Shown here piece by piece: positions 45,144 through 63,601 of a stretch of DNA of 64,000 bases. The stretch spans positions 1,674,001-1,738,000 of the forward strand of contig NZ_WUPT01000001.1 of assembly GCF_009830125.1 (NCBI RefSeq). The letters are read 5' to 3'. Numbering within the stretch: position 1 is the first letter of the stretch; the number at the start of each line of letters is the position of its first letter. A program made the position numbers and the translations under genes. The notes under the pieces are model-generated. The model was not told the DNA's origin. It made no database searches and saw nothing but the letters and a program-made list of their open reading frames with translations. This DNA is from Kangsaoukella pontilimi (lineage in GTDB: Bacteria; Pseudomonadota; Alphaproteobacteria; Rhodobacterales; Rhodobacteraceae).

Positions 45144-46598
45144 TCAGTCCTTAGCCGCCGTTGCGGAAAGTGACCTTGCGACGCTCAGCAGGTCCGAGAC
45201 GGGCAGAACCATTGTCTCACCCCGGTCGATGACCTGGACCATCTCACTGGCACCGATCCGGTCGACAGCGTCGCACGAACTCCGCCATTGCGAGGTTTGA
45301 ATGCTGCATATCCGTTCGGCGACGAACCCGACGACATGGTCGCCGAGCGAAACCAGAAGAACGTAGCTCTCCGTCAGCCCTTCCGATGCGCCATCATGAA
45401 GAACAACGAGCGGGACTGAACGGTCGCCGACGGGGAAAACACCTTTGACACTTGGCGGCATGTCACCCGGTGGGGTCAGCTCCGTCGGCATTGGCAGAAT
45501 GCGGGAAATCTGAGCGGCTGGCACCGCCCGTTTGTGGCCGGCATCGAAAATCAGGTATCGCACCGCTTCCCGGACAATCCCCGAGCCATCCGTAGCTTTT
45601 CGCGGCGCGCTCTCTGTTTCGGTGCTGCTTCGTGTGGACAGAGCGGCAATCGAAGCAATGTCCGGACGGCGGCAGAAATCCTCGAAATCGAGCACATAAA
45701 CCTGGGCGCCGGTCTCGGCGACGAACACCCGCGGAAGCAAGGTATGCCTGGTCAGAATAGGACTGGATGGTTTCAGGCGGTCAAGCGGCACGTTCGAGAG
45801 ACGCTCGGTCGCATCGACTGACAGCGCCAGCAGTTTGTCGCCAGGAAAACGCAGGACAACCGTTTCGGTCTCGCGCGGGGCATCGGAGTCCCCCAAGCCC
45901 AGAACCCGGCTCGCATTTACCACGGGCACCTTCCATCCATGATGGTCGATGAAGCCCATGCAAAGCCCGCCGTCGCCGCCGATCTCCCGGCTATCCACGG
46001 TCTTACGCGGAACGGTCGCCGAGATATGCGCAGCATCGACCCCGAAATGCGCACCGCCAGAAGTGAAAATCAGGTACTTCGTGCTTGACGCGGTTTCTAC
46101 CTTGGGCCCCGTGCCCCGCCCGAAAGACACGCTTGGGACCTGCGCGTTAGAGAACAGCTTTTCGACATCCAGGCAATTCACCACCTTTCCATCCAGAACG
46201 AAGCCCCCGCCGAAGAGGCGCTGGTCCCCATGCCCAGCGGTACCGGAGCCCGACATGCCGAAACGGGTGTCAATCTGATCCGCGTCACTCAGGCTGACGA
46301 TTTCATCGACCGCGACCGCCGTAATGCGGTCTTTGAATTTCAGCACTGCCGCTCGTTCGATGCTTCGGGGACGGCCCGGAAGGTCGGACAACGCTTCGAT
46401 ATCCAGAAGCGGGACGAGGCTTTCCCTAAGGTTAAACGCCCCCAGAATGGCCTTGTCCGGCTCCATCAGATTGGAAAGTTCGGGGACAACGCAAACCTCC
46501 GCCAGATGATTTACGGGCACACCGACAAGCCGGTCCCCAATCCTGAAGACGCCATGACCCCTCGGTGCTCCAGCCGCCCTCAGGTTCCTGTCTTGCAT
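45144..46598 (-). CDS. Protein with three CheW-like domains
   Basis: A 484-residue protein of three consecutive CheW folds: about residues 15-150 ([21 protein letters not shown]), 170-315 ([21 protein letters not shown]) and 345-475 ([20 protein letters not shown]). CheW normally links receptors to CheA; a triple copy could bridge several receptors or kinases. Its start lies 19 nt inside the upstream receptor gene, so the two are coupled. No cheA, cheY or cheR is in the window. Confidence 0.85.
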
Positions 46599-49378
46599 AG
46601 CGCATTGGCCAGGTCCGCAATCCCGTCACAGACCTTCGAATTCGCGAGGTTGGCCTCGGATGTCGATGCCAGCCCGTCAATTGAGGCGTTCAGGGATTTG
46701 GTGATGGCGCGGAGGCCGTCGACCGTCTCATCGACCTTCCGCGAGCTGGATTCGAATTCCCGGTCGGCATCCTCGACAAGCCGGGTGATCTTGCGCGCAG
46801 CATCGGCATTCCGCTCGGCAAGTTTGCGCACCTCTTCCGCCACGATCGAGAAGCCGATTCCGTGTTCGCCGGCGCGTGCGGCTTCGACCGAGGCGTTGAA
46901 CGCGAGAAGGTTGGTCTGACCGGCGATGTCTCCGATGACTTCGACGACCTTCGAGATCTCGGTAGACGACCCACGCGCGGTCTCGAACGCGGCGCGCCCG
47001 GTGGTCAGGTTTTCGCAACTGCGTTCGGCCTGTTCCCGCGAAGATTGGGCAAGCGTGGCGATCTCGGCCAATTGGCTCGAGAGCATCGTCGCGGATGTCT
47101 TCAACCGCTGCGTCTCGGACAGGATACCATCTGCGGAATCGACCGCCAGCCGCTCAAACCGCGTTTGTCGTGTCTCATTGACCGAGTAGGCGACGATCCG
47201 CGAAATCTCGTCCTTTTCGTCGCGGATCGGGCAGTAAATGGAATGCAAGTGCACATCGCCATTGTATCGGTCGACATGGCTCATCCGCCCGACCCATGAT
47301 TCACCTCGCGCGAGGCTCAGCCAGAACTCCCGATACTCGTCGGTCTTCACAAAGTCGGGGGAACAAAAGGCGCTATGATGTTCACCGATGATCTCACGAC
47401 GGGAGTGTCCGAGATATTTCAGCAGGTTCTCGTTGGCGGAAAGGACGCTGCCGTCGATGTCGAACTCCGCAATCGCGAGCCCGGAATCCGCGGCCGCGAA
47501 GCGCGCCTCGAAATCAATGCGCTCCGCACGTGCCTTGGTGATGTCGATTCCAACAAGAAATATTCTATCGACCTGTCCCGAACGGTCGTAAAGCGGGCTG
47601 TAAGAGCCTGTAAGCCATACCGAATTGCCATCTTCTAGGCTGCGGTGGAATTCTCCTTTAACCGTTTCGCCGCGACACACGCCGGCCCACATATCAGTAT
47701 CGTTCCGACTGACCTCTCCCCCATTTGCACAGAAATCCGAAAAGGTCTTCCGTCGGATTTGCTGAGCCGTCTGACCGAAGGATTTGAGCGACGTGCCGCC
47801 GGCATCCACGACATCGCCATCGCGCGAGTATTCGATCATGCAGACGAAATCGTCGACCGCCTGAAGCTTCTGCTCCTTGTGCAAAAGCGCTTGGTGGCTC
47901 TCAGTGACGTCCTCTGCCACGAGGAGAATCGTGTTGATGCGTCCGTTGGCCTCAACAATGGGGCTATAGACGCAGCGCAGCCAGAAGGTCGCACCGGCGG
48001 GCGAAATGCGGCGGAAAACACCCGCCACCACCTCGCCCGCGACAAGTTTGTCCCAGAAATCCGTATGGCGTCGCGTCGTGGCGAATTCCGGGTCGCAGAG
48101 ATCGACATGGTTCACGCCCGTGAAATCCTCGGGAATGACACCGAAAATCTCGCACATCTTCCTATTGGCCGACGTAACCTCGCCCCGCAAATTGAATTCT
48201 ACCAACGCGAGACCGCGATCCACGGCGCCACTCTTGGCCTCCAGCGACTGGGAGTGGTTCCGCTCATCGTGGTTGTCCCGCGCCAGTTGGATGACCTTGC
48301 GCACCTCACCATCGCTTTCGACCACCGGAATCAGCGTGACTTCCATCCATCGTTTCAAAGCCTCGGAGGTCACATGCCGGATTGACAGCCTGGCGTATTT
48401 CTGTCGCTTCAAGACCTCCTGCCAGGCGTTTTCAAAGACTTCGGATTTCCTGAATTCGTCGTCGCAGAGCGCATCGAAGCGTTTGCCCAGAACTTCGGCT
48501 TCCGGAAGACCGTAGCAGTCGAGCATCGCTCCGTTCACCGAACGAATATACCCCTCCTGGTCGAGCTCGGACCAAGCGAACTGGGATTTGAATGCCTCCA
48601 GCGCCAGTTCGTCACGCTTCGCCTTATGCGTCACGTCGGAGATATCCATCGCGATCTGCATGATCCGCTTCACGAAACCGCTGTCATCGCGGATCGGAAG
48701 AAACGTGCTCTGCAGCCAGACCGACTCGCCGGTGCCCGAGACATGCTCGTGCTGCCCTTCGATGATTCTGCCTGAGCGGAGCTTTTCCCAGAACTCGACA
48801 TAGGCGGGGGTCTGCGTCGTCGAGGGTGGCCAGAGCGAATCGTGATGCCGTCCTGCGACCTCTTCCCCGAAAAGCTCCAGCGACATGACGGCACGATCGT
48901 TGGCCGCGGTGATCACGCCGTCGGCGTCATATTCGATGACGCCCAGAACCGGTTCGATCAACGGCCAATCCGATCCGCCACCCTCCGCGGTCGCGCTGGC
49001 GCCTGCGATGGCGACGACGTCAATCGCGGCGCCGTCGGCCGACAGGCCGCCGCGGAACATCGCCGGCATGCTCTGACCCGAGGCCGAGACCAATGCGCCC
49101 GTCCAGGCCGAGCGTTCGCCCGCCGACATCTGCCACCAGATATCATTGGGTTCGCCGCCATCGACTGTGATCGAGCCTGTAAAATCCAACCCGTCATAGG
49201 TGTCACTGAAGATATCCAGCGCCTCGCGCGCTTTTTCGTTCATCGTCAGAATACCGCCCGTTTCCGCGTCGAAACGCAAAACGGCGTCGGACGCGAAAAG
49301 CGCCGCCGAAATGGTTTCGGATGCGGAAGGCGGCGTGTCGTCCGAAAGAGGCGGCTCGGTGAGGGTATCGGTGCTCAT
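46580..49378 (-). CDS. Soluble methyl-accepting chemotaxis protein with about six PAS domains
   Basis: A 932-residue chemoreceptor without transmembrane segments or HAMP. Five clear PAS repeats plus a degenerate first one fill residues 20-740; most end in a PAC segment such as SPIVEANGR or SPLYDRSGQ. The C-terminal signalling hairpin [20 protein letters not shown] is intact but the coiled coil is short. ATG at 49378 ([10 protein letters not shown]) has AGGAC upstream; 49420 is the alternative. It probably senses an internal redox, light or ligand signal and acts through the coupled CheW protein. Confidence 0.9.
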
Positions 49379-49538
49379 CGGCAAGTCCTGTGCTGCTCGA
49401 AAGCCCGCATACCGTATCATTCGTTAAGCAATGGTTTGCCGCGCTGCAGCTCTCCGATTTTCATGGGAATTAGGGAAATGCTAACCGACATGGCCTAGCC
49501 CCTCTAGGCAACAGCGTTGGGACCGGGAAACGACAGAC

Positions 49539-51119
49539 ATGCACATGGCGGCCGAAGACCTTGGCACCCTCCTGATCGATCGGCACATTTCTCTCACCGA
49601 CGCGGCACGTGTCGCTGATGGCAGCTTGAGAATCGCTCTCGCGGAAAGCGCGCGTGATCGCTGCGAAGGGGCGTTCGCGCGTCTCCAGGCCGCCCTGTCC
49701 GAGCGGCGTCATATCTACGGTCTGACCACAGGCTTCGGACCTCTTGCCAATCGGCTGGTCGACGCGGAAAGCGGCGAGCGGCTGCAGCAAAACCTCGTCT
49801 ACCACCTTGCCAGCGGCGTCGGCGAGCCCTTCTCCTGGACTTCGGCGCGGGCAATCGTGCTGGCGCGCATCATGGCTCTGGTGCAGGGCGCATCGGGCGC
49901 CCGACCCGCCACGGTCGAGAAACTGCTGGCCGTCCTGAATTCCGAGTTCGCGCCCGAAGTTCCCATGCGCGGCACGGTTGGGGCATCGGGGGACCTGACG
50001 CCGCTTGCGCATATCGTGCTTTGCCTCCAGGGCCACGGCCACTTCCTGACGCGCGACGGCACTCGCGTGGCCGCGAAAGATGCGCTCGCCAGGATAGGCA
50101 TCGCGCCGCTCGATCTGTCCCACAGGGACGGTCTGGCGCTGGTCAACGGCACCTCGGCCATGACCGGGGTCGCGGTTTTGAACGCTGTGCGCATGGCACG
50201 GGCGCTGGACTGGTCGGTCGCGGTCACGGGTGCCCTTGCCGAAGCGCTTGGCGGACGAAGCGAGGCCTGGGACCGGGCATTCGCCGCGCTTCGGCCTCAC
50301 CCCGGCCAGCAACGCGCAACCGAGCGGTTGAACCGGGCGATCGCAGGCACTGGCTGCGTCAGAGACCTACCGCTCGCCGCGCGCGTGCTCGAACCCGGTC
50401 AGGGCGTGACAGAGGAGGATGAAGCAGGCCAGGATGCCTATTCCCTGCGCTGTGCTCCGCAGGTCATCGGCGCGGTCTGGGATGCGGTTGACTGGCATCG
50501 ACGCGTGACCCAAACCGAATTGCACGCGGTGACCGACAATCCGATCTTTCCGACAAATGCAGGCTCGGTTGCTCTGCATGGAGGCAACTTCATGGGGTTG
50601 CACGTCGCGCTCGCGTCCGATGCGGCGGCAAACGCCGTCACGGTCCTTGCGGGATTTCACGAGCGGCAGATCGCGCGCATCACCGACGAAAAGCTGATCC
50701 GCGGCTATCCTGCGTTTCTGAGCGGCGGCGAGATCGGGCTGGACTCGGGTCTGATGGGGGCACAGGTCACCTCAACGGCGCTTCTGGCCGAGATGCGGCT
50801 TGCGGGCGCGGCATCAGTGCATTCGATTTCGACGAACGGCGCCAATCAGGATGTGGTGTCTCAGGGCACGATCGCGGCCCGCATGCTGTCAGAGAAGCTC
50901 GACAATTTTTTCAGAATTCAAGCGATCGCGGCTATCGCGGCGGCACAAGCGCTCGATATTGCCGAACGGCGGGGCACGGCTGCGCCTCTCTCGGCGTCCG
51001 CCTCACTGCTCCGGGTGTTTGTCCGCAAAACATCTCCATACCTGGAGCAGGATCGCCCTCTCGGAGGCGAGATCGACATTCTGGCCGCGCGGATGGGACA
51101 GAAGCCGCTCACAGTCTGA
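49539..51119 (+). CDS. tal: Tyrosine ammonia-lyase
   Basis: A 526-residue aromatic ammonia-lyase that removes ammonia from L-tyrosine to give p-coumarate. The MIO cofactor triad Ala-Ser-Gly is at 149-151 (GTVGASGDLTPLAH), Y60 is in HIYGLTTGFG, and the selectivity pair is His89-Leu90 (NLVYHLASGVG). His-Leu is the tyrosine-specific pair in Rhodobacter TAL; histidine ammonia-lyases have Ser-His and phenylalanine ones Phe-Leu. The same residue numbers as the characterised Rhodobacter enzyme strengthen the call. It converges with the gvp cluster and would supply the PYP chromophore precursor. Confidence 0.9.
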   Translation: MHMAAEDLGTLLIDRHISLTDAARVADGSLRIALAESARDRCEGAFARLQAALSERRHIYGLTTGFGPLANRLVDAESGERLQQNLVYHLASGVGEPFSWTSARAIVLARIMALVQGASGARPATVEKLLAVLNSEFAPEVPMRGTVGASGDLTPLAHIVLCLQGHGHFLTRDGTRVAAKDALARIGIAPLDLSHRDGLALVNGTSAMTGVAVLNAVRMARALDWSVAVTGALAEALGGRSEAWDRAFAALRPHPGQQRATERLNRAIAGTGCVRDLPLAARVLEPGQGVTEEDEAGQDAYSLRCAPQVIGAVWDAVDWHRRVTQTELHAVTDNPIFPTNAGSVALHGGNFMGLHVALASDAAANAVTVLAGFHERQIARITDEKLIRGYPAFLSGGEIGLDSGLMGAQVTSTALLAEMRLAGAASVHSISTNGANQDVVSQGTIAARMLSEKLDNFFRIQAIAAIAAAQALDIAERRGTAAPLSASASLLRVFVRKTSPYLEQDRPLGGEIDILAARMGQKPLTV

Positions 51120-51609: not shown

Positions 51610-51822
51610 TCAGGCGGTGGCCGGATCCACGGTCAGTCCAACCGCTTCGGCATATTTGAGCCATGTCTCGACAGACGCGACAACCGCACGCACTTCGATT
51701 GCGATCAGTTCGATGCCGACAAGCGACACACGCACGAACGCATCGACGACCACGCCCTTGTCCAGAATTCGATCGACGACTTCGGCGATGGAGGCCGATG
51801 CAACACTTTTTTCGATAGCCAT
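51610..51822 (-). CDS. gvpA: Major gas-vesicle shell protein GvpA
   Basis: A 70-residue protein with the canonical GvpA core: [20 protein letters not shown], then [31 protein letters not shown]. GvpA self-assembles into the ribbed wall of the gas vesicle. The ATG at 51822 has GAAGGA 7 nt upstream. The gene has its own 115-bp upstream region with inverted TTCTTA/CCGATAT elements and its own hairpin, so it can be expressed apart from the long operon, as expected for the abundant shell protein. Confidence 0.95.
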
Positions 51823-51874
51823 GTTAAGTCCTTCGTTTGAGTGCAAGAAACCCCAGCAGCCCGGGATTTCGTCT

Positions 51875-51937
51875 GGATATCGGACAATTTCTAAGAAGCG
51901 ATGAACTCGTTCCTAAAAACTTCTTAATTTCCGATAT
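51875..51937. promoter_or_regulatory. Inverted TTCTTA...CCGATAT elements upstream of gvpA
   Basis: The minus strand at 51897-51877 reads TTCTTA-N8-CCGATAT toward gvpA. A facing copy on the plus strand (51921-51937) reads TTCTTA-N4-CCGATAT. Together they form a large imperfect inverted repeat 55-115 bp before the gvpA start. A third copy with the same N8 spacing lies near gvpN (61754-61774). Likely a shared regulator site; the binding protein is unknown. Confidence 0.5.
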
Positions 51938-53257
51938 TTAGACTGCCTTCGCCAGACGGGCCTGCTCGGCCAGCAACTCGGCCGTCGCATGTCTGACATC
52001 CAGCAGAAATTCCTCCAGCTCAGGCGCCTTGTGAGCCGGCTGAGCCTCGATCAGTTTGGCGAGCTGGTGGCTCATCGTCTCTTGCATGGACGCGATGACC
52101 GAGAGTTCCGACCGCGTCTCGGAGGACGGCGAGGACGCCGCGCCCATCGCCCCGCGGATCGCCTCCGCGAGCGAGGTGAACCCGCGCGCGAGCGCCTCCG
52201 AAACCTGTGCAGCATCCATGCCTGCGCCTTGATCCGCCGCTTTGTCGACGACCGTATCGAGACGCCGCATGGTCTGAGCCAGTGCGGCGGTGACACGCGC
52301 CATGCCACGGTTGAATTCGGATGTATCCGGACGCGGCAGCGGTCGCGAGCACAAGGTGTCGACCATTTGTGTCAGCGCTTCGAGTTGCTGTGCAACAGTC
52401 TCCTGCGCCACTCTTCCGCCTTCGATCAGTCGCTCGACCGCTTCCAATCGTTCGGCAAGCCCGTCGAGGCGCGCGTTTTCGCGAGCTGCGCCGTTAGTGT
52501 CATCAGGCTCATCCGCGGCCCCAATTCCATCAGACACCTCTGAGGCATTCGGCATATCTTCGGAAACGGCTTCTGCATGATCGCTAGCCTCGGCATCCAT
52601 CGGATTTTCTGCGCTCTGCGCCTCATCGATCTGAGATCCGGTGTCTTCGTCCTTGTCCACAACAAAGGCGAACTCGTCCACACCCTCGACCGGGGCGTCC
52701 GCGTCTTCTGGTACCGCGCCACCGCCGCGCAGGAACATGGGCGGCGAATCGTCACTCACCTCGGCAGCTGCGTCGCTTTCCTCAGATCCCGCTGGAGCAT
52801 CCTCGTCCGGGACGGGGACAGCGCCATCGATGACCCCATCTTCGACCATGTGCTCCGTCGCATCGTCGTGGTTTTCCGAGGTCTCGATCCCCTCATGGTC
52901 CGGTGTAAGGTCGGTGTCCGAGCTGGCTTCAAAGTCCAGTTCGCTCACAGGCTCGTCATCCTGCGCGACGCCGTCATCGTCCACGTCCTCGACGTCCGAG
53001 ACGTGACCCTCGCCGGCATCAAGCCGCTCGATGACCAAATCCAGCGCCGCCAAGGCGCGCGGGACGTCCCCGTCGACCTTGATTGCAACGCGCCCGTCAG
53101 GCAGCGGAACAGGAAAATCGATGCCGCTGGCAAGGCACCGCTGTGTCAGAGCCAGCGTCGAAATCGCATGCGCGGGCGGCGCCGACACCACATGCGTAAT
53201 ACGGTCATGTCCGCGCAAGAATTCAATATATTCCGAGGTGGCGTCCTGGCCTGACAT
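51938..53257 (-). CDS. Acidic, coiled-coil gas-vesicle-cluster protein of unknown function
   Basis: A 439-residue protein in three parts. Residues 1-80 are globular (HDRITHVVSAPPAHAIS). Residues 80-260 are extremely acidic and low-complexity. The last 170 residues are helical (LDGLAERLEAVERLIEGG onward) and may form coiled coils. I recognise no family. It stands between gvpK and gvpA on the same strand. The ATG at 53257 has AGGAGG 6 nt upstream. A GvpC-like surface protein or an assembly scaffold are guesses; 33-residue GvpC repeats are not seen. Confidence 0.75.
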   Translation of the reverse strand: MSGQDATSEYIEFLRGHDRITHVVSAPPAHAISTLALTQRCLASGIDFPVPLPDGRVAIKVDGDVPRALAALDLVIERLDAGEGHVSDVEDVDDDGVAQDDEPVSELDFEASSDTDLTPDHEGIETSENHDDATEHMVEDGVIDGAVPVPDEDAPAGSEESDAAAEVSDDSPPMFLRGGGAVPEDADAPVEGVDEFAFVVDKDEDTGSQIDEAQSAENPMDAEASDHAEAVSEDMPNASEVSDGIGAADEPDDTNGAARENARLDGLAERLEAVERLIEGGRVAQETVAQQLEALTQMVDTLCSRPLPRPDTSEFNRGMARVTAALAQTMRRLDTVVDKAADQGAGMDAAQVSEALARGFTSLAEAIRGAMGAASSPSSETRSELSVIASMQETMSHQLAKLIEAQPAHKAPELEEFLLDVRHATAELLAEQARLAKAV

Positions 53258-53364
53258 CCTCATCCTCCTGCTGATCACCAATTTGCCTGCGCCCTGCCGA
53301 AGGCGGCGCGCACACATGTCGCGCATCTCCTAGCTCAGCGAGCTTAAGGACCGGCTAATGCGCC

Positions 53365-53706
53365 TCAGATCGTTTTGCCGAGCGGGCCGAGGTCGAGAGA
53401 GAGGTCGGCAGGATCGAGGCCAAACTGCCCGGCCACGTCGCGGATCGCCTGTTCGGAGCGCATCAGGGCAAGACCGATCCTCTCTTCCTCCTCGTCGGTG
53501 AGCGTGCCCGCATCGACCCGACGGATCGCCTGCAATTCCATGAGCTGACGGATGAATTCCATGAGGCCGAGCACCAGACGCGCCAGGTCCTGTTCGATGG
53601 TTTCGGGATCGATCTCGACCCGGCCGTCCGGCCCTGCGGCGGCCGACAGCGCCGTGCGGAGGGATGCGGCGCCCTTGTCCAGGTCAAACGTCAGCGGCTC
53701 AGCCAT
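53365..53706 (-). CDS. gvpK: Gas-vesicle protein GvpK
   Basis: A 113-residue GvpK. The family core is plain: DPETIEQDLARLVLGLMEF, RQLMELQAIRRVDAGTLTDE and EEERIGLALM. GvpK is an essential accessory protein of vesicle assembly. The start at 53706 overlaps the preceding short GvpF/L-like gene by 8 nt. Confidence 0.93.
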   Translation of the reverse strand: MAEPLTFDLDKGAASLRTALSAAAGPDGRVEIDPETIEQDLARLVLGLMEFIRQLMELQAIRRVDAGTLTDEEEERIGLALMRSEQAIRDVAGQFGLDPADLSLDLGPLGKTI

Positions 53707-54310
53707 CGGGTGCCAACGCCTCAGCCGCAAAGCCGACAGGTGCCCAGAGACCTGATGCAACGAGCTGGCCCAAGTGGATGTCAACGCCAAGTTGTCCGGA
53801 AGAAAAGAGATTACGCACGGATGCTTCCTGGCCGCGCGGGAAGAGGAGGTCCATCGCGAATCCGGTACCAATCGGGCGGAGCGACTGGCCGCGCGGCTTC
53901 AGTCGTTCAGAGATATCGCGCAGGACCTCCGCCCCGACGGTTCGCGCTTTCCTGGCGTCAGAATTACTCTGGCGGCGGTGGCGCAGAAAACCGCGACCTG
54001 TCGTAGGAGCGGTAGCGGCGCCCTCGTCGGACCGGACGAAATGCAGGTGCAGACTGAACTGGCCGCAATCCCCGATACGCTCGAAAGCTGCTGCCATCCT
54101 GTCGGTACACATGGCGTCATGACCGAGAGGGGCCGGAAGGAAGCCATCGGAGATGCGAAAACATTTCTGAAGCAGCGCAAGACGGGCGCGCAGCTCTGAA
54201 AGCTCTGACACCGCCACGATTTCTACGAGGTTGCCGTTCACCATCCGCTTTGCCAGGCATCCAGGCGGCAAACGCCCGCCCGAGCGGGTCCATCCAAGCA
54301 GGGTCGTCAT
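53699..54310 (-). CDS. Short GvpF/L-like protein
   Basis: A 203-residue protein with weak similarity to GvpF/GvpL. The segment ISDGFLPAPLGHDAM corresponds to the 'vlPlrFGt' region of that family, followed by a helix and FSLHLHFV like the GvpF/L core strand. It lacks much of the usual length of about 250 residues. It overlaps gvpK by 8 nt and the preceding gvpS/J-like gene by 4 nt. Confidence 0.6.
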   Translation of the reverse strand: MTTLLGWTRSGGRLPPGCLAKRMVNGNLVEIVAVSELSELRARLALLQKCFRISDGFLPAPLGHDAMCTDRMAAAFERIGDCGQFSLHLHFVRSDEGAATAPTTGRGFLRHRRQSNSDARKARTVGAEVLRDISERLKPRGQSLRPIGTGFAMDLLFPRGQEASVRNLFSSGQLGVDIHLGQLVASGLWAPVGFAAEALAPDG

Positions 54311-54531
54311 GCCGCCCCCGGTCCAGCCTGGATTTTGTCGGCCGTGGTCAGGACGGCGCTCAGACCAAGATAAACAAGATCGATGCCCGCCACGGTCAGC
54401 CAGACCTCTCCGTGGAGCACGACGCCGTGATCGAGAAGCCCATCCACAAGGTCGACCAGCCGCTCGTCGCGCGCGGACAATGCGTCTTCCGGCGTGGCGA
54501 ATACCATGTCGAGGGGGCGGCGTTCAGCCAT
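54307..54531 (-). CDS. gvpS: GvpA-family protein (GvpS/J-type)
   Basis: A 74-residue GvpA homologue. LVDLVDGLLDHGVVLHGEVWLTVAGIDLVYL matches the GvpA fold, but the N-terminal extension and alpha-helix 2 differ from GvpA, as in the minor shell proteins GvpJ/GvpS/GvpM. The symbol is by analogy. Overlaps the flanking genes by 4 and 8 nt. Confidence 0.75.
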   Translation of the reverse strand: MAERRPLDMVFATPEDALSARDERLVDLVDGLLDHGVVLHGEVWLTVAGIDLVYLGLSAVLTTADKIQAGPGAA

Positions 54532-55255
54532 GGGATACCCTGCCCCGCTCTTCAGTCTCCCGGATGTCCGCGAAGGAATAACACGGGCCCGGCCCTCTAA
54601 GCTTTACGGTCAGGCCGAGCGCGCCGGCGTCCTCCGCCAGATCTCTTACGGTGGAAACAAAGGGGGCGATGTCGTCGCGATCCACAAGAACCGCGAAGAA
54701 GGCAATCGTATCTTTCTGTCCCGTCGGGCTCTGTCGCAACTCGTTGGTGACTGTCGCGATCCTCTCGGCAAAACCGCGCGCGAAGGCGTCCCTTCTGGCC
54801 GAGAGGTTTCGGATACCGTCGCGAACAGCGCGTTTCCGTGTTAGGAATGTGCGCCCGTCTTCGGAGGGCGGCGACGGCTCATATGGCGCATGTGCGGGAG
54901 CGCCCCCGCCCCAAACGAGGGAAAGCGCGAATTCCACACGGCCCCTCAGCCGCGCCATACCGCGACAGAACCATTCTTCATCCGTGGCGATGCCATCGAG
55001 CATTCCGGAGGCCGACGAAAAAACGGTCCCGAACCGGACCGGAAGCACGTCCGTCTGAAGGGCATAGGCCGAGAGCAACTGGTGATGTGCCAGAACCTCG
55101 TCGATGCCTGGCTCCTGTTCTGCTGACATCGCATCGCTCTGGGCGGAAGTGACGATCAGCGCCATCCGATCAAGCTCGATCCTGAGGTGCTGCGGCGCAT
55201 CGGAAGGCTCGGGGGCGTCCTTGGGCAGGATGCCGTGCAGGACAAGCGCCGTCAT
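54524..55255 (-). CDS. GvpF/GvpL family protein
   Basis: A 243-residue GvpF/L protein. It opens LVLHGIL, has DVLPVRFGTVF, GRVEFALSLVW and ends with GPGPCYSF, the family's characteristic order. These proteins bind GvpA and act early in assembly. Start at 55255 overlaps the upstream gene's stop (ATGA). It is one of three full-size paralogues here. Confidence 0.85.
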   Translation of the reverse strand: MTALVLHGILPKDAPEPSDAPQHLRIELDRMALIVTSAQSDAMSAEQEPGIDEVLAHHQLLSAYALQTDVLPVRFGTVFSSASGMLDGIATDEEWFCRGMARLRGRVEFALSLVWGGGAPAHAPYEPSPPSEDGRTFLTRKRAVRDGIRNLSARRDAFARGFAERIATVTNELRQSPTGQKDTIAFFAVLVDRDDIAPFVSTVRDLAEDAGALGLTVKLRGPGPCYSFADIRETEERGRVSHG

Positions 55256-56184
55256 GCCACCGCCTCCAGCCCGGGCGTGACAGAGACCCCTTCGGACCAT
55301 GTGTCGATCAGCGCAATCGGCCCGGAAGAGGCGGTGGAGCCGGCCGCCAGCGCGATGCGGGCGGCGTGGCGGATGGCCGCTGCATCACAGTCCGGTTTAC
55401 GGAGCAATGCCTGCCTCGCCTCGCGCACACCATCCGGGGTGCCGGGCGCCTTGACGCCAAGCCGCTCGAATGCAGCGGCCACGCCGGACGCAGATACCTG
55501 ATGAAGCTGCAATGTCGCGAAGGAGACGGCCGGCCCCGGCCCAACCTGCCGGATGCGGAACCCTTCGGTCCAGATCGCATCGATATCCGAAAGTGCCGCG
55601 TCGAGACCGGCGTCCTCCGAGGTACCGACAAGAACCGCGGCATTGGCAATCATATTCGCGCCGCACGGCAGCTCGACCAGTTCGCGAGCGACACCTTCGA
55701 GGCGCGCGCTGATCTCACGGCCCAACCTTTGCGCCAACCGTGTCACAGCCGACGATAGTGCGGGGCCCGAGACGGCCGCATCTGAAAAGAGCGGTACGAT
55801 CTCGGGTGCGTCGCGAAACCGCTCCAGAACCCGGGGGGCGTCCCAGCCGACAGAGACCTGATACTGGACCACCGACGACAGGCGCCTTGCCAGACCATCA
55901 AGCATATCACGATTGCAGTTCAGAAGGTCCGGCATCTGCGCGATCTCGATGACGTTGCCCGGAGCGAATGGCAGGACGGTCCCGGAGGGCATCAGTCCTT
56001 CGAGCAGTTTCTGGCGCGCCGGGGCCTCCTCCAGTCGGCGCTGGCGAAGCATCTTGCCCCGGATCCAGAGGGGCGTCGGTGGCACGTGGATGGCCGTGAA
56101 CCCATGGTCCTGAACGACCCCGCAATCACCCAGTGGAGGCAGGTCGGGATGACCGGGAAGGATCGCCAGCAGTTCGCGTCTCAT
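55252..56184 (-). CDS. GvpF/GvpL-like protein, long variant
   Basis: A 310-residue, divergent GvpF/L homologue. GTVLPFAPGNVIE takes the place of the FG motif, YQVSVGWDAP is the core strand, and RQVGPGPAVSFATLQ is the family's C-terminal motif. About 55 extra C-terminal residues (EARQALLRKPDCDAAAIRHA onward) are not usual. It overlaps the CDC48-like gene and the next gvpF/L by 4 nt each. Confidence 0.75.
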   Translation of the reverse strand: MRRELLAILPGHPDLPPLGDCGVVQDHGFTAIHVPPTPLWIRGKMLRQRRLEEAPARQKLLEGLMPSGTVLPFAPGNVIEIAQMPDLLNCNRDMLDGLARRLSSVVQYQVSVGWDAPRVLERFRDAPEIVPLFSDAAVSGPALSSAVTRLAQRLGREISARLEGVARELVELPCGANMIANAAVLVGTSEDAGLDAALSDIDAIWTEGFRIRQVGPGPAVSFATLQLHQVSASGVAAAFERLGVKAPGTPDGVREARQALLRKPDCDAAAIRHAARIALAAGSTASSGPIALIDTWSEGVSVTPGLEAVA

Positions 56185-58292
56185 CGCATGGCCTCCGTGA
56201 CCTGGCGCAAGTGATCGACGGCGACATCCGACGCACGCCGCCTGAGTGCGACCAGCGCGGCGTCGATATCCGCCGCGCCGATTGCTGGTGCGGCCGCCAA
56301 GTCGCTGCCCGAAAGGTGCCGCCGCAGCGCCTGCCGTGCAGCGGACTGTGCGAGGCTGGCCAGATCGGCGCCCGAGAACCCGTCGGTCGCCCCGACCAGT
56401 GCAGAGAGATCGACGCCTTCTTCAACGGATCGCGACTGGAAATGCACGTCCAGAATTGCCCTCCTCGCCGCCGCGTCGGGCAAGGGCACGGTGAGCACGT
56501 GGTCGATCCGCCCCGGCCGAAGAAGGGCCGGATCAATGGCATTCGGGCGGTTCGTGGCGGCCAGAACGACGACGTCGTCGTTTGGACTGAGACCGTCCAT
56601 CTCGACCAGAAGCTGCCCCACGATCCGGTCGAGCACAGCATCCTGCCCGGTGCGTCGCCGGGCAAGAGCGTCGAATTCATCGAAGAAGAGGATCGCAGGC
56701 GCCGCCTGCCGGGCCTTGGCAAAAAGTTCTGCTACGGCACGCTCGGCCTCGCCAAGAAACTGCGACAGGATGCGCGTTGGACGCACTCCGACGAAATTCA
56801 ATCCGCTTTCACCGGCAAGCCCGCGCGCCAAGAGGGTTTTCCCGCTTCCCGGCGGCCCCGCCAAAATGACACCACGTGCGGCAGGAACGCGGAGACTGCG
56901 AAAACTGTCCTTGTGCCGGATCGGCCAGACGACGGCCTCTTCCAGAGCCGCCTTCACGTCGTCCAGACCACCGATGTCCGACCAGCGCACCGTCGGGCTG
57001 TCGACCACGGTATCGCGCAGGATTGCCGGGCGCGTCAGGGCCAATCCCGTCTCGAGATCGGCGGCGGAGACAACGAGGTCGTCTGCGCTGACCATATCCT
57101 CACCCCCTGCCGCCCTGACCGAGCGGGCAAGCGCCGCAAGAGCGGCCTCGCGTGCGAGGGCTGCGAGATCCGCACCGACATAGCCGTGGCTTGCTTCGGC
57201 TATCGCGTCCAGATCGACACCCGCGTCCAGGGGGGCCTGCCCCAAATGGACCGACAGAATGTCCCTTCGTTCCGCTCGGTTGGGTGGGCGGAACACCACT
57301 TCGCGCTCCAACCTGCCCGGTCGGCGCAGTGCCGGATCGATGGAGTCAGGCAGGTTCGTTGCCGCCATGACCACGATCCGGCCCCGATCAGACAACCCGT
57401 CGAGCAATGTCAGAAGCTGTGCGACGACGCGACGTTCGACCTGTTTCTCACCCGAAAGCGCGTCGCGCCGTGGTGCGACGGCATCAATCTCGTCTATAAA
57501 GATGATCGCCGGGGATTTGCGGGCAGCGGCGTCGAAGACCTGACGCAGCGCCGCTTCGCTGTCGCCATAGTGTTTCGACACGATCTCGGGTGCGTTGATG
57601 TGAAAGAAGGCTGCCGAGGTGCGCGCGGCCACGGCGCGTGCCAGAAGCGTCTTTCCGGACCCCGGCGGTCCTGTGAACAGAATGCCCCGGGGGGGCGGCA
57701 CTCCCAACCGTTCGAAAAGCTCGGGCCGCGCGAGCGGCGTTGCGACCATCTCCTGAACGCGGGCGATCTGTTCTTCGAGGCCACCGATCCCCTCGAAAAC
57801 AGGGGCCGGCGCAGGCTGCCCCCCAACGGACAGGATCGTCTTTGCGGAAAAGATGGCCGCCGGACCGGGCGTGATCTCTGTCACGACAACCGGCACGCTT
57901 TGCCCCATGCCGGACGGTACCATCAGGCGGTCGCCGAGGGTCAGCGGCAGGTCGAACAGGCTTTCGGAAAGGTCCGCTGGCCGGACCCTGATTTCTGCTC
58001 CGTCCAGCGTCAGAAGCACGCTGTTCGCCGTCGGCAGAGCGGCGACCGCAATCTCCGCGCGCCCGGTGTCCGAGGCACCGATCCGCTCCAGCGCCGCCGG
58101 GTCCAGTTCGACCGCGTCGCCGCCTGAAGCTGCGCGCACCGCGCGGCAGTGGGTCAGCGCCTTGCCCCGCACGGCCACGGCGTCGCCCGGCGAAATGGCA
58201 AGCGCCGCCATCATGTCTGACGGGAGACGAATGACCGCCCGGCCCGCGTCGGCCTCTGGTGCCGCGCGCAGGGTTACTTCGTGAAAGCTCAC
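56181..58292 (-). CDS. CDC48/VAT-type AAA ATPase with two AAA domains
   Basis: A 703-residue ATPase. An N-terminal double-psi barrel-like domain (residues 1-100, VIRLPSDMMAALAISPGDAV) is followed by D1 (Walker A GPPGSGKT 208-215, Walker B IIFIDEID 263-270) and D2 (Walker A 479-486, Walker B ILFFDEFD 534-541). Both have the ATN sensor and RRPGR/LRPGR arginines. CDC48-type enzymes pull apart protein complexes. It overlaps gvpG and a gvpF/L by 4 nt, so it is a true member of the operon and may act in gas-vesicle assembly or breakdown; that is inference. Confidence 0.9.
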   Translation of the reverse strand: MSFHEVTLRAAPEADAGRAVIRLPSDMMAALAISPGDAVAVRGKALTHCRAVRAASGGDAVELDPAALERIGASDTGRAEIAVAALPTANSVLLTLDGAEIRVRPADLSESLFDLPLTLGDRLMVPSGMGQSVPVVVTEITPGPAAIFSAKTILSVGGQPAPAPVFEGIGGLEEQIARVQEMVATPLARPELFERLGVPPPRGILFTGPPGSGKTLLARAVAARTSAAFFHINAPEIVSKHYGDSEAALRQVFDAAARKSPAIIFIDEIDAVAPRRDALSGEKQVERRVVAQLLTLLDGLSDRGRIVVMAATNLPDSIDPALRRPGRLEREVVFRPPNRAERRDILSVHLGQAPLDAGVDLDAIAEASHGYVGADLAALAREAALAALARSVRAAGGEDMVSADDLVVSAADLETGLALTRPAILRDTVVDSPTVRWSDIGGLDDVKAALEEAVVWPIRHKDSFRSLRVPAARGVILAGPPGSGKTLLARGLAGESGLNFVGVRPTRILSQFLGEAERAVAELFAKARQAAPAILFFDEFDALARRRTGQDAVLDRIVGQLLVEMDGLSPNDDVVVLAATNRPNAIDPALLRPGRIDHVLTVPLPDAAARRAILDVHFQSRSVEEGVDLSALVGATDGFSGADLASLAQSAARQALRRHLSGSDLAAAPAIGAADIDAALVALRRRASDVAVDHLRQVTEAMR

Positions 58293-58534
58293 CTGCCCGC
58301 CCCGGACCGGGCCTCGCGCAACCGGTTCAGAAGAACCTCTTCGGCCTCGTCATATGCTTCCTCACTGATCTGACCGGCCAGCAGCGCGGCCTCGAGCTGT
58401 TGCAGTTCTCGGCGGATCGCGCCGGGGTCAGTCAATTGCTGCTCGGCGGCCTCGTGGATTTTGCGCGCAATCCACAGACTGCCGTGAACAGGCCCCGAGA
58501 CGGGAACCGCAAGAAGCCGTGTCAGCAACCCCAT
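58289..58534 (-). CDS. gvpG: Gas-vesicle protein GvpG
   Basis: An 81-residue GvpG: a hydrophobic start (MGLLTRLLAVPVSGPVHGSLWIARKI), then a helical IRRELQQLEAALLAGQISEEAYDEAE and a basic end. GvpG is a small accessory that interacts with GvpF/L. Its start overlaps the end of the preceding gvpF gene by 1 nt. Confidence 0.92.
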   Translation of the reverse strand: MGLLTRLLAVPVSGPVHGSLWIARKIHEAAEQQLTDPGAIRRELQQLEAALLAGQISEEAYDEAEEVLLNRLREARSGAGR

Positions 58535-59304
58535 CAGGCAGCCTTCCCGGCGGCTTCGCCGGCAAGAGAGATATTGACGAAATGGAAGGCAGGTCCGGGC
58601 CCCACGATCTGCGCCGCGCCGTCTGTGCCATTGCCGAACTCCAAGCCCGAGGCGGCCGCTTCCAGTGCTGAAGTGAACGAATCGAGGCTGTCCTCTGCGA
58701 TCAGGAATTCGGCCCGAAGAACTTCGAAATCAGTTTCCGGCGCCTTAAGCACATGCGATGCGACGAACGGCTTCAATTCGGTCAGAAGCCTCTTCTGCGC
58801 AGCCTGGCGCCGACGTCCGACCTGTTCTCCCAGCGCCCGGCCGAAATCGACTTTTGCAAAGTGATCGGCCTGGCCGTCTGACAATCGTGCATGCGCGGCG
58901 GCCAGTTGCGGCGAGGCCGAAATGGCTGCCTTGAGCGCGTCCTCCTCCGAGGTGGACACCCGAACGCCGATCTCGACATGGCCGCGGACCCGGTCAAACG
59001 CCTCGCGAACCGCGTCGCGGCTTTGGATCACAAGCCTCTCGACCTCGTCCAGCGACGGCGAACTCATTCCGAAGCGCATCGGAAGCACGGGGCCCGCCTG
59101 CATCGCCAGCTCGAGCACCTTCGCATGGGCCAGAAGCAGGCGCCGGCGCGGAAGAATGTCCTCTCCGTCATGGGGACCGTAGATCAGGGCCAGACCGCCG
59201 CACGCGCTGACCGATACAGCACCGGTCACCCCGGCGACGTCGGTCAGAACGATGCGTCCGGCCTCGGCATCCCCCGGTTCGAGAAGCCCGTAGAGGTAGA
59301 TCAT
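58534..59304 (-). CDS. gvpF: GvpF/GvpL family protein (GvpF-like)
   Basis: A 256-residue GvpF/L, the closest of the set to canonical GvpF: it starts MIYLYGLLEPGD, has GPVLPMRFG, GHVEIGVRV and FGRALGEQV, and ends IVGPGPAFHFVNI. It stands next to gvpG as in other clusters. The ATG at 59304 overlaps the gvpH stop (ATGA), fixing the start. Confidence 0.9.
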   Translation of the reverse strand: MIYLYGLLEPGDAEAGRIVLTDVAGVTGAVSVSACGGLALIYGPHDGEDILPRRRLLLAHAKVLELAMQAGPVLPMRFGMSSPSLDEVERLVIQSRDAVREAFDRVRGHVEIGVRVSTSEEDALKAAISASPQLAAAHARLSDGQADHFAKVDFGRALGEQVGRRRQAAQKRLLTELKPFVASHVLKAPETDFEVLRAEFLIAEDSLDSFTSALEAAASGLEFGNGTDGAAQIVGPGPAFHFVNISLAGEAAGKAA

Positions 59305-59873
59305 CCGCCCGCCTCGCCGCCATGCGGACACGACAGTTCCAGAATGCCATTTCTCAGGCTCACCGTGATGTCGTCCAGAGCGATGCCTGGCGGCAGGGAC
59401 GCTTCTCCGCGAAAGCGCCGCGTGCCTGTGGTGGTAATGATCAGAGTGTTCTCAACCAGGTCGAGCACAAGGTCCTCGCGGCCGACGCCGGGAATGTCGG
59501 CGGTCAGGCGCCACGTCTCATCGTCCTCGACGATGTCGTGGTCCATCTTGCGAACCGGCGCTTCGCTGAGGGGTGTGTCATCCCGCGTCGCGGGCCTGGG
59601 GGCGTTCACGGGCGTCGTCGGCGCCCTGCGTCGCGGCGCAGTCGAACCGATCTCCTGTCCGGCGAAACGCACCCTCACGCCCGCCTCGGCGCGGAGCGGC
59701 CCCTTGGCCGTATCCATGTCGAAGCTGCGGTGGACTTCGCCCGTATTCCCGTTCTCGATACGACTACTTATGTCCGATAGCGCCTCGCCCAGCGCGCTCA
59801 GGATGCCGTCAAATCCTGCGCGAATATCCGAAACCGGGTCCGCGTCGGTTCGCCTTTTTTCACGATCTGCCAT
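59301..59873 (-). CDS. gvpH: GvpH, Hsp20-like gas-vesicle protein
   Basis: A 190-residue protein with a C-terminal alpha-crystallin-like domain (WRLTADIPGVGREDLVLDLVENTLIITT onward). An N-terminal helical and Pro-rich portion precedes it. GvpH-type proteins chaperone shell proteins. Its ATG overlaps the gvpJ stop (TGATG), so 59873 is the start. Confidence 0.88.
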   Translation of the reverse strand: MADREKRRTDADPVSDIRAGFDGILSALGEALSDISSRIENGNTGEVHRSFDMDTAKGPLRAEAGVRVRFAGQEIGSTAPRRRAPTTPVNAPRPATRDDTPLSEAPVRKMDHDIVEDDETWRLTADIPGVGREDLVLDLVENTLIITTTGTRRFRGEASLPPGIALDDITVSLRNGILELSCPHGGEAGG

Positions 59874-60190
59874 CAGTTTGCTCCGTCCCTGTCTTTCAGG
59901 CCAGCCAGCCGGTCTTCGAGAAGCGCCACACGTTCCAGCAGGTCCCGGTTTTCGGTCTCGAGGCCACGGGCGCGGGAACTGAGCATCGGATCGTTTTCCC
60001 ACCAGTCGATCCCGATCTCGCGCGCCTTGTCGACCGTCGCAATCAACAGTCTGAGACGGATCGTCAGAAGTTCGATTCCGACGAGCGAGACCGCGACATC
60101 ACCCGCGATCACGACCCCCTTGTCGAGGATGCGCTCCAGCACATCGGCCAGACCGTCGGCACCGACCGAGCTTTGCATGTCGAGGCTCAT
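59873..60190 (-). CDS. gvpJ: GvpJ, minor GvpA-like shell protein
   Basis: A 105-residue GvpA homologue: [33 protein letters not shown] is the conserved fold. A C-terminal tail with a helical coiled coil ([17 protein letters not shown]) after WWENDPML is typical of GvpJ. Minor shell proteins are thought to start or shape vesicles. It overlaps gvpO by 4 nt. Confidence 0.9.
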
Positions 60191-60495
60191 GACGCCTCCC
60201 GGTCCTCTCGTCGGTAGCGCCTTGTCCGCGAACAGAAAATCACCTCTCCGGTCTCATCGAGATGCACTTCGAATGCGGCCAGAAGATCATTGTCCCCCAT
60301 GCGTGCGGGGCTATCGATGACATCTATCACGACATTCCAGTCGCCGTTTTCCTTACGCTGACAATGCGAGACCGCGTCGATCGGCTGATCGGTGATGCCA
60401 GATACCGAGCGTCGGGCGATTGCGATTGCCTCTTTCCAGCCCGGGCGGGTACCGCCGCGGCTGGAAAGGAAAGTGTCCGGCGGACTATGTTCCAT
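60187..60495 (-). CDS. gvpO: Gas-vesicle protein GvpO
   Basis: A 102-residue Gvp[18 protein letters not shown], the central [25 protein letters not shown] and the RTRRYRRED tail are family marks. GvpO is an accessory needed for vesicle formation. It follows the 83-residue gene by 1 nt. Confidence 0.9.
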
Positions 60496-60496
60496 G

Positions 60497-60748
60497 TCAC
60501 TTCTTCTTTTTCAGGGCCGATGGAGCGCGCGCGATAACGTCCAGAAGCGTGAACCGATCGTCATGCTGTTTGGCGAGCTGGCGCCGCGCTCGATGCGCGC
60601 GACCTTCGGAATTGGCGATTTCCCGTTCCAACCGCGCAATGTCGAATTCCAACCGCGCAAGCCGCGACGCCGCCTCCTGCGGTGTCAGCGCGCCGGTGGC
60701 ATAGGACTTGTGGACTTGGGGCGGGTTATTGGGTGCCGGTCTGCGCAT
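60497..60748 (-). CDS. Small basic coiled-coil protein in the gvp operon
   Basis: An 83-residue, strongly basic protein. Residues 23-60 form a helical stretch (AASRLARLEFDIARLERE) and the C-terminus ends in KKKK. No family is recognised. Its ATG overlaps the gvpN stop (TGATG). It could fill the place of a small accessory such as GvpI, but nothing in the sequence proves this. Confidence 0.65.
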   Translation of the reverse strand: MRRPAPNNPPQVHKSYATGALTPQEAASRLARLEFDIARLEREIANSEGRAHRARRQLAKQHDDRFTLLDVIARAPSALKKKK

Positions 60749-61782
60749 CAGGCGTCCTTCGGCTGTGGAACCGTTGATTGGGCGACAGCCCGTACAACGG
60801 TGTCGGGCGCGATGTCAGGCGCACGACCGCGGATCACGTCCGAGACAACCACTCGGAACCGCTCTTCGTCCAGCGTATCGGTCAGCGCGGCATGAGCAAT
60901 GATGCGTCCGATCAGGATGGACGTGCGCATGGACGGCAGCAGTGCCTCGTCATGCTCGGCGCGTATATGGCGCACAATGGCGACGATGCGCCGCGCCAGT
61001 TTGGCGTCGATCCCGGTTGTGGCGCGCAGGATCTCAGCCTCCGTTTCCGGAGAGTATCCATCGAGCCGGAATGTCACCATACGGTCGAGCAAAGCATCAG
61101 GCGCCGCATTCACGGCAACATAGTCAGACGGGTTAGAAGTCAGGATGATACGGAAATCGGGATGGGCGCGGACATAGGAATGTCCGCTCTGCCCGCCACC
61201 GGAGACGAGCAGTCCTTCCTCCAGTACTGAAAGAAGCACCACATTGGCCTGTGGCGAGGCGCGCGTAAACTCATCGTAGATAAGTGTATGGCCTTCGCGC
61301 ATCGCCTCGGCCAGCATGGCGTCACGCCAGTCGACGCGACGCTGCGTCTGCTTTCGCCTTACGCTTTGAATATACTTGTCTACCACCACCGATTCCGAAT
61401 GACCGATCTCCTGGCCGACAAAATCCTTGGAAGATAGCCCCTCATGCCCTGTCAGCAATGCCATCGGGCGGCCGATCTCAGCCGCCATCCGAATGGCAAG
61501 GGCTGTCTTCCCGATTCCGGCCGGGCCGGAGAGATGGACAGCGACACCAGCATCGAGGCAGCGCCTGCCGCGTCCGATAATGTCCTGAACTTCAGCGGTG
61601 TCGCAAAACGTGCCGGGTTTGCGGGTCGCAATGGAGGAAAAAGCCGGTCCGAATTCGGCGACATCGACAGGTGGGATGCGGGGGATCACAGACACGGGCG
61701 CTTCACTTTCTATCGGTCGACACGTCGGATTTCGCACGATTCTGGTTGATAAGTTCTTAAGTGAACTCCGATATCGATCCAT
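60748..61782 (-). CDS. gvpN: Gas-vesicle AAA ATPase GvpN
   Basis: A MoxR-like AAA ATPase of up to 344 residues. Walker A is GPAGIGKT (86-93), Walker B TLIYDEF (166-172), with GHEGLSSKDFVG and IILTSNPSDY characteristic of GvpN. It assists vesicle growth. The start is uncertain: ATG at 61782 lacks a good ribosome site and GTG at 61695 (giving 315 residues) would put the TTCTTA-N8-CCGATAT element at 61754-61774 in the upstream region. It lies 40 nt after the p-coumarate:CoA ligase gene. Confidence 0.92.
   Translation of the reverse strand: MDRYRSSLKNLSTRIVRNPTCRPIESEAPVSVIPRIPPVDVAEFGPAFSSIATRKPGTFCDTAEVQDIIGRGRRCLDAGVAVHLSGPAGIGKTALAIRMAAEIGRPMALLTGHEGLSSKDFVGQEIGHSESVVVDKYIQSVRRKQTQRRVDWRDAMLAEAMREGHTLIYDEFTRASPQANVVLLSVLEEGLLVSGGGQSGHSYVRAHPDFRIILTSNPSDYVAVNAAPDALLDRMVTFRLDGYSPETEAEILRATTGIDAKLARRIVAIVRHIRAEHDEALLPSMRTSILIGRIIAHAALTDTLDEERFRVVVSDVIRGRAPDIAPDTVVRAVAQSTVPQPKDA
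61754..61774. promoter_or_regulatory. TTCTTA-N8-CCGATAT element near the gvpN start
   Basis: The plus strand reads TTCTTA, eight bases, CCGATAT, in AT-rich surroundings, and matches the arrangement upstream of gvpA. It lies 60-80 nt before the GTG alternative start of gvpN. Probable operator of a second promoter in the operon; unproven. Confidence 0.4.
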
Positions 61783-61822: not shown

Positions 61823-63121
61823 CTACCAGTCGGACAGCTTACCCATCTCGTTCAGCGGCAGCTTGGCACCAATAGAAAATGCGATCGGCCGCGCGACTGG
61901 CTCAAGAAGACGGGTCGCATGGGCATGTAGCGCCGACATGATTTGCTCGTCCGGCATCAATGGATCTGCAGGTACCACATAGGCCTTAAGGCGTGCCCCC
62001 GAGACGCGCACAGCGGCATCTGCCACCAGGTCACACTGGCGGAGCGTGTCAGCCACACGGCTCAAGGAGACGTTTACGCCGGCCACCTGCACCGCGTGGT
62101 CAAGTCTTCCCTTTGGCGTAAAGCCATCTTCGCCGATACGTTCCAGTTCGTCTTGTAAAGGGACGGGCACGCCTGAACCGGCATAGCTCAGCGTCTCCGC
62201 CGAGACATCCAGATGGGGCAGAAACGCAAAAGGAGAGTCAGGCGCAGTCCGATACCCGAGCCCGCCCGTTTCTGTGGACCCGAAGACCTCCGTCATCGTC
62301 GCGAGACCAGCATTGGAACAGTCGTTCCAAGTCTGCTCCGGCAAGGCCGCGCCAGACGAGACCCCGCCGACACCGTTCGGGAAGGAAACTCCGGTTTCCA
62401 TCAGAAACTTCCACTGGAACGGCGTCGCGACGAGCACATCGCCAGGTCGGAGCCCTTTCATGACCGATATCGGAGAGCGCAGGGCGCAATCGATCACAGG
62501 AACGGTCCTGATCTCTGCCATGATCACCGAGAAAATGAATCCGAAGACATGTGTCGGTGCCGCGAGCGACACGATGCGCTTCACCTCCCTCATGACGCCG
62601 ACGGAACCCAAAGCCGTTCCCTCGATGAACATCTCCGAAACCGGCTTCGTGACCATTTTCGGACTGTCAGTGCTGCCTGAGGTCTGGAAAACGAGAACAG
62701 GTGAACCCGATGCTTCTTTCAGGCGCTTCAAAACGAGACCGCACCAGCCGTCGAGACTAGGCTCAAGAAGGAGATAGTCATCCAGTCCGGCTGAACCGAG
62801 ATCGAAAAAACGCGACACCGCGGACGCTGCAGAGAGCCTCGCGAGGCTGTCCAGACCCACACCGTCTTCGCCGATAACCACGTCCTTCGCATCTGACGCG
62901 CCGCCGTCTGGTCGAAACAGCGCCTTGGCGGCCTGAAACCAAAGAGGTCCTTTCCCGCCGCTCGACTGGATGTCGTCAAGGATGAGATGCCTCAAGAGAC
63001 GGTCGGAATGCTCACGGCCAAGAGCAAAGTTTTTCGGAGACGCCAAGCGTTCGGCGTCCCCATTTGCCAAGGATGGCGACAAACTACTTAATTGCGACCG
63101 GTCAACCTGCGTCGAGCTCAT
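61823..63121 (-). CDS. pcl: p-Coumarate:CoA ligase (PYP chromophore activation)
   Basis: A 432-residue adenylate-forming enzyme, short for the class. The P-loop is QTSGSTDSPK (residues 146-155), VFGSTETGG is the AMP-binding motif, and the C-terminal lysine is in LPLNEMGKLSDW. Next to tal-linked gvp genes the best fit is the ligase that makes p-coumaroyl-CoA for photoactive yellow protein. ATG at 63121 has GGAG 9 nt upstream; 63166 would overlap the previous gene by 65 nt. A general 4-coumarate- or fatty acid-CoA ligase is the alternative. Confidence 0.8.
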   Translation of the reverse strand: MSSTQVDRSQLSSLSPSLANGDAERLASPKNFALGREHSDRLLRHLILDDIQSSGGKGPLWFQAAKALFRPDGGASDAKDVVIGEDGVGLDSLARLSAASAVSRFFDLGSAGLDDYLLLEPSLDGWCGLVLKRLKEASGSPVLVFQTSGSTDSPKMVTKPVSEMFIEGTALGSVGVMREVKRIVSLAAPTHVFGFIFSVIMAEIRTVPVIDCALRSPISVMKGLRPGDVLVATPFQWKFLMETGVSFPNGVGGVSSGAALPEQTWNDCSNAGLATMTEVFGSTETGGLGYRTAPDSPFAFLPHLDVSAETLSYAGSGVPVPLQDELERIGEDGFTPKGRLDHAVQVAGVNVSLSRVADTLRQCDLVADAAVRVSGARLKAYVVPADPLMPDEQIMSALHAHATRLLEPVARPIAFSIGAKLPLNEMGKLSDW

Positions 63122-63587: not shown

Positions 63588-63601
63588 GGGTTCACCTTTT
63601 T

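Follow-up and report, generated by a model that had tools for sequence, protein, structure and literature searches.

What does a long acidic protein of no evident family do in a gas vesicle gene cluster, set between gvpK and the gene for the main shell protein, GvpA? The question arises from a 64,000-nucleotide stretch of the Kangsaoukella pontilimi genome (the window), for which a preliminary description had proposed a 439-residue reading frame in this position. The frame, whose product we call X, proved to be real, with the flanks and length as proposed, and it lies on the minus strand, which had not been stated (Table 1). X starts with MSGQDATSEYIEF and ends with ARLAKAV (439 codons). An alternative in-frame start at 53326 would extend the protein to 462 aa; we prefer the shorter version because a good ribosome-binding site, GGAGGATGAGG, directly precedes its ATG. 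GC content by codon position (0.75/0.45/0.69) resembles that of the adjoining gvp genes. The gvpA gene sits 115 nt downstream, and neither a promoter-like nor a terminator-like site was found in the interval. This spacer (51823–51937) holds a long inverted repeat (ATATCGGA...TCCGATAT), with a hairpin z-score of −2.3 in the window and of −2.2 to 0.2 in seven relatives; the folds differ, with nothing like the window structure in these relatives, and the hairpin was dropped as a conserved element.

Table 1 Features of the X gene, the gvp cluster and the surrounding island (window coordinates unless indicated)
Feature	Position	Strand	Basis
X, 439-aa acidic, helix-rich gas-vesicle-linked protein	51938..53257	minus	ORF, RBS, relatives
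X, small N-terminal domain, residues 1–80	53018..53257	minus	alignment of relatives, low-confidence model
X, acidic low-complexity linker, about residues 84–253	52499..53008	minus	composition of 86–262; unstructured in model
X, helical C-terminal half, residues 254–438	51944..52498	minus	AlphaFold2 model
X, single family motif, residues 304–343 (SRPLPRPDTSEFNRGMARVTAALAQTMRRLDTVVDKAADQ)	52229..52348	minus	repeat HMM built without window X
X, C-terminal motif, residues 411–435 (...LLDVRHATAELLAEQARL)	51953..52027	minus	C-terminal HMM without window X, 0/1000 shuffles
gvpA, main shell protein	51617..51822	minus	PF00741 5e-16, NCBIfam GvpA 2.8e-35
gvpK, upstream neighbour of X	53365..53709	minus	PF05121, 1.9e-30
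Rest of gvp cluster	54307..60495	minus	family scans
GvpA-like	54307	minus	family scan
GvpF/L	54524, 55252, 58534	minus	family scan
CDC48-type double AAA ATPase	56181-58292	minus	family scan
GvpG	58289	minus	family scan
Hsp20	59301	minus	family scan
GvpA/J-like	59873	minus	family scan
GvpO	60187	minus	family scan
AAA_5 ATPase in GvpN position	60748..61782	minus	best matches: annotated GvpN of L029, L030
4-coumarate-CoA ligase-like gene	61823-63166		328.2 bits vs cut-off 334.7
Photoactive yellow protein (PYP)	L057:673-1047:-, window-relative about 64172-64546		TIGR02373, 177.2 bits, above cut-off
Aromatic amino acid lyase	49539-51119		
PAS-rich MCP	46580-49420		
Triple CheW protein	45144-46598		

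The same description had divided X into a globular N-terminus, an acidic linker and a helical C-terminus, a layout that agrees with the composition of the protein and with a low-confidence AlphaFold2 model. X has a pI of 4.08 and a net charge of −68, and its residues 86–262 contain 59 Asp/Glu versus 3 Lys/Arg. The single-sequence model was poor (mean pLDDT 46.2), with short helices and strands N-terminally, residues 81–253 without structure, and C-terminal helices at 254–279, 285–304, 312–342, 349–372, 379–405, and 412–438. In the N-terminal domain (N-domain; low-confidence model, pLDDT 60), helices were placed at 4–17, 34–43, and 65–80 and strands at 23–26, 47–51, and 57–60; for this fold, the PDB gave zero matches at E ≤ 0.001. 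That X has no recognised family likewise held for Pfam, NCBIfam and the PDB: nothing exceeded the Pfam and NCBIfam cut-offs (best, TIGR02677 at 17.6 bits vs 165.85), a sequence search of the PDB gave no match, and X-family profiles retrieved weak coil or chance matches from it at most. Weak Pfam matches of X relatives (e.g., Baculo_PEP_C, 1.8e-8, below cut-off) were set aside as coil resemblance.

Single-protein searches with X returned X itself only (295 genomes of the bacterial family, the two genomes of its own genus, and plasmids). We therefore used synteny with gvpK (PF05121), the only route that revealed a protein family. Carriers of gvpK numbered 6 among the 295 genomes of the family sample (five over the cut-off), 11 among the 390 of an order sample (nine over) and 5 among the 56 of one genus; these samples overlap, and their union comprises 12 family genomes with gvpK above the Pfam cut-off (G000, G051, G083, G144, G253, G310, G321, G383, G471, G472, G564, and G968). 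G285, G406, and G580 were excluded, their gvpK falling below the cut-off and a gvpA-type gene being absent. All 12 genomes encode X or, in the same slot, a long, coil-rich and mostly acidic counterpart. It lies beside gvpK or gvpA in 11 of them—in G051, the contig of the cluster carries X at a distance of ~400 kb, the slot being filled by an ORF that by eye resembles an aromatic lyase—and in nine it is the immediate 5′ neighbour of gvpA, in the same orientation. The X–gvpA pair is flipped as a unit relative to gvpK in G144 and G321, and in G083 X adjoins gvpK, with gvpA at the opposite end of the cluster. Analogues in other gvp clusters—the check that had been suggested at the outset—thus exist, within the same bacterial family. 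A further exception, G471 (locus L025), has gvpK and a broken X in a genome without a gvpA-type gene; this locus is a relic, in which the truncated X runs into a CheW-like (by eye) reading frame, and it resembles a Loktanella strain that carries gvpK without a full gvp cluster, according to the available part of PMC3646047.

Pairwise phmmer E-values of 1e-105 to 6e-22 tie together the proteins of G383, G310, G564, G471, and G472 (G471 and G472 not directly); those of G083 and G144 are tied to this core more weakly, and window X, G253, and G321 match no other member. X was the least conserved cluster protein in five of five genome comparisons (22–40% identity vs 86–97% for GvpA), its length ranges from 375 to 1016 aa, and an alignment of eight N-domains contains one invariant His. 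Judged from sequence, X is no orphan and belongs to a fast-changing family without a name, linked to gvp clusters of Rhodobacteraceae. A description of the protein was not found in the literature covered, outside which the likeliest place for one, Kyndt 2004, falls.

The family is marked by a 40-residue motif, RPxPxxDLTxQRxSLAxFxxALxxVLxRLE, in which a Pro-containing break precedes a helix of ~30 residues; most members also carry a C-terminal 'LRxxLAELLA' helix. The motif occurs in 1 to 5 copies: one in window X and G051, three in G383, G310, G564, G472, and G144, four in G083, and five in G968, whose X went through a recent internal duplication with a unit of ~67 residues. Motif scores were strong in the seven relatives with 3 to 5 copies and reached 24.5 bits for the single copy of G051. 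Spacing within the proteins varies from 67 to 111 residues, so the motifs do not keep a constant register with the GvpA rib. In window X, the motif scored 9.9 bits with an HMM that excluded this protein, beating all of 2000 and 1000 shuffles, and helix 312–342 is strongly amphipathic (hydrophobic moment 0.55, reached by none of 500 shuffles); many motif helices elsewhere in the family are moderately amphipathic and several not clearly so.

Membership was tested with models that exclude the protein in question and 1000 shuffles each, counting the shuffles that scored at or above the real sequence. For window X, these were 0 for the motif, 0 for the C-terminus and 18 for the N-domain; with a slightly larger seed set, the N-domain match (aligned 5–72) ranked second of all matches with one shuffle higher, and is weak. 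The corresponding counts (motif, C-terminus, N-domain) were 0, 21, and 162 for G051; 0, 0, and 153 for G321; 0, 77, and 624 for G144; 0, 191, and 0 for G083; 0, 117, and 0 for G472; and 36, 1, and 90 for G253. G968 X, contained in none of the models, scored strongly in all three modules (116.9, 68.3, and 56.4 bits). N-domain and C-terminus are therefore not detectable in every member, and the protein of G253 is to be regarded as a same-slot counterpart with the C-terminal helix alone and no clear motif; G321 X would count as a member through its motif and C-terminus only. Window X also aligns with G051 X over residues 200–436, with a score above 2000 shuffles, and shares the location of the family, within the gvp cluster and 5′ of gvpA. 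Among 1684 ORFs taken without bias, its motif reached a best-domain E of 0.051 and a whole-sequence E of 0.23, not significant alone, and spurious ORFs had whole-sequence scores near or better than this; the match is credible because the gene slot was pre-specified. Taking motif, C-terminus and location together, window X is probably a diverged member of the family.

Within the genus of G383 (56 genomes), the X profile matched exactly the five genomes that carry gvpK. The chance of identical sets is 1/C(56,5) = 2.6e-7; because the profile itself includes four of these five, what it adds is G968 and the 51 blanks. The 295-genome family sample gave five matches, four of them gvpK carriers and the fifth (G108, 7e-5) a long protein whose tail looks RTX-like by eye, rejected as coil resemblance or chance. 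Since the profile missed G144, whose X was located by position, it is incompletely sensitive and its blanks do not prove absence. Against ORFs of at least 80 aa from other gvp clusters (three from the class, Octadecabacter, Methylocella, Spartinivicinus, two Salipaludibacillus, Nostoc, and Halobacterium), the motif gave nothing better than E 0.5, and in the two Salipaludibacillus loci, found via GvpK, it was absent at E ≤ 10. The gvp cluster of Octadecabacter, a member of Rhodobacterales, is of another kind and lacks X. We are confident that X belongs to gas vesicles.

Beyond gvpK, the cluster continues with recognisable gvp genes, including an AAA_5 ATPase that we infer to be GvpN. The CDC48-type AAA ATPase is conserved in several clusters of X genomes and in three other alphaproteobacterial ones (L030, L047, and L048), and two small gvp-cluster proteins without a Pfam family (60497–60748 and 63102–63605) have counterparts in many relatives' clusters. 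PYP comes just past the right end of the window, after the gvp cluster, and beyond PYP lies an acidic protein (L057:2322-3035:+). Together with PYP, the ligase-like gene, the lyase, the MCP and CheW, the gvp genes form what looks like an island for light, buoyancy and taxis.

Our main reading, to which we give a probability of about 0.5, is that X, as a gas vesicle protein, docks on GvpA through its amphipathic helices and stands in for GvpC, to which it is not homologous. X would most likely be co-produced with GvpA and bound to the outer shell surface. There, docking on GvpA, in the manner of GvpC repeats at GvpA helix α2, would fall to the amphipathic helix of ~30 residues that follows every RPxPxxD break and to the C-terminal LAELLA helix. 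Extra motif copies may lengthen the belt or add contacts, while the acidic linker and the N-domain would face the cytoplasm, keeping vesicles soluble or spaced. Binding to GvpA and the shell, strengthening, and the roles of linker and N-domain are all putative. A 16-residue GvpA segment is almost the same in Nostoc, a GvpC carrier, so a docking face may be kept.

X could instead be an assembly factor rather than part of the shell, keeping nascent GvpA soluble or aiding the start or widening of vesicles and then leaving. We consider this unlikely: the position directly 5′ of gvpA and the two members with one motif copy are consistent with it, and long acidic disordered tracts may solubilise, but the other cluster proteins are better conserved than X, and growth from 1 to 5 repeats would better fit a surface-binding rod. 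Quite doubtful, too, is that X clusters vesicles or joins them to another cell structure as a tether or partition adaptor, with the linker as spacer and the N-domain as contact; domain, disordered linker and coil in succession, rapid divergence and variable length would suit such a part, yet a scan of gvp genes in the window yielded no recognisable ParA-type partner. Regulation of gvpA by a light, redox or pressure signal, from a gene upstream of its target, would fit the island, with its PYP, its aromatic ammonia-lyase and 4-coumarate-CoA ligase-like genes, its PAS-MCP and its CheW; Pfam and NCBIfam scans of X, however, contained no DNA-binding or sensor domain, and multiple helix repeats would be unusual in a regulator, which renders this reading improbable.

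Similarly improbable is that X is a true, very diverged GvpC, although both are helical and X shares its acidity with haloarchaeal GvpC (pI 4.05). Comparison of X with two annotated GvpCs by hhalign revealed no profile similarity (E 0.59 and 0.29), and the X motif scored 7.6 against the GvpC repeat, while column-shuffled controls reached 10.0. Nostoc GvpC showed autocorrelation peaks at 33, 66, and 99, and haloarchaeal GvpC repeats measure 32–39 residues; the top lag fell at 32–34 in none of 11 X proteins. The family model Gas_vesicle_C (PF01304) had no match in 14 bacterial genomes, a set that includes 11 X carriers but not G968; it matched the Nostoc plasmid used as a control and missed a Halobacterium plasmid with an annotated GvpC, so the absence of GvpC stands or falls with PF01304 and inspection. 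Of the two roles in the preliminary description, a client-binding scaffold of the vesicle has nothing specific in its favour. The GvpC-like strengthening protein survives as a role, given a repeated and often amphipathic helix, variable copy number and no recognised GvpC, but not as a homolog, since homology was tested and not found.

We return to X as a putative GvpA-docking stand-in. Unlike the X gene, which lies 5′ of gvpA or by gvpK with gvpN at the other end, genes for helical proteins sit between gvpA and gvpN in two other alphaproteobacterial clusters; their products lack the X motif, and lag-33 self-similarity is clear in one (L047:887-1783:+, G832; 0/300 shuffles) and weak in the other (L030:5706-6449:+, Methylocella tundrae; 14/300). 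The same slot in Octadecabacter (L029:1394-2221:+) encodes a protein that looks helical N-terminally and then runs into a tail of tandem repeats rich in Pro/Ala/Lys/Ser. In G846, the protein in the slot where GvpC is expected (L046:3705-4847:+) shares a C-terminal helical domain with the protein beyond PYP (3.3e-11), and both are acidic. The presence of either X or a GvpC-like protein in these clusters suggests replacement without proving it. We tentatively propose, with less confidence than we place in docking itself, that vesicles of the Rhodobacteraceae type employ a second, independently evolved reinforcing protein in place of GvpC: an amphipathic-helix rod or belt with a Pro-rich hinge and a C-terminal helix as its anchor, in which the number of motifs (1 to 5) would tune vesicle width or strength. 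If X reinforces shells, clusters without a recognised GvpC would mean that such reinforcement arose at least twice in evolution, and vesicle engineering would gain a different handle on the surface, for which nature supplies variants with 1 to 5 repeats.

In the available portions of PMC10185304 and PMC9501494, GvpC is described as a helical rod on the outer surface with 33-residue repeats, which binds GvpA helix α2, raises collapse pressure and has a repeat number linked to vesicle shape; the former also holds that it occurs in almost all gas vesicle clusters. Like GvpC, X is gvp-linked and helical with a variable repeat number—its copy-number change by duplication resembles the variable repeat number of GvpC (PMC9501494, as far as available)—and it is acidic like the haloarchaeal protein; unlike GvpC, it has a 40-residue motif at 67–111-residue spacing and a globular N-domain. 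As for the locus, the gvp cluster beside PYP resembles that of Rhodobacter capsulatus, for which PMC3646047 and PMC12826048 cite Kyndt 2004 and where, in the accessible part of PMC3646047, the gvp cluster likewise adjoins PYP.
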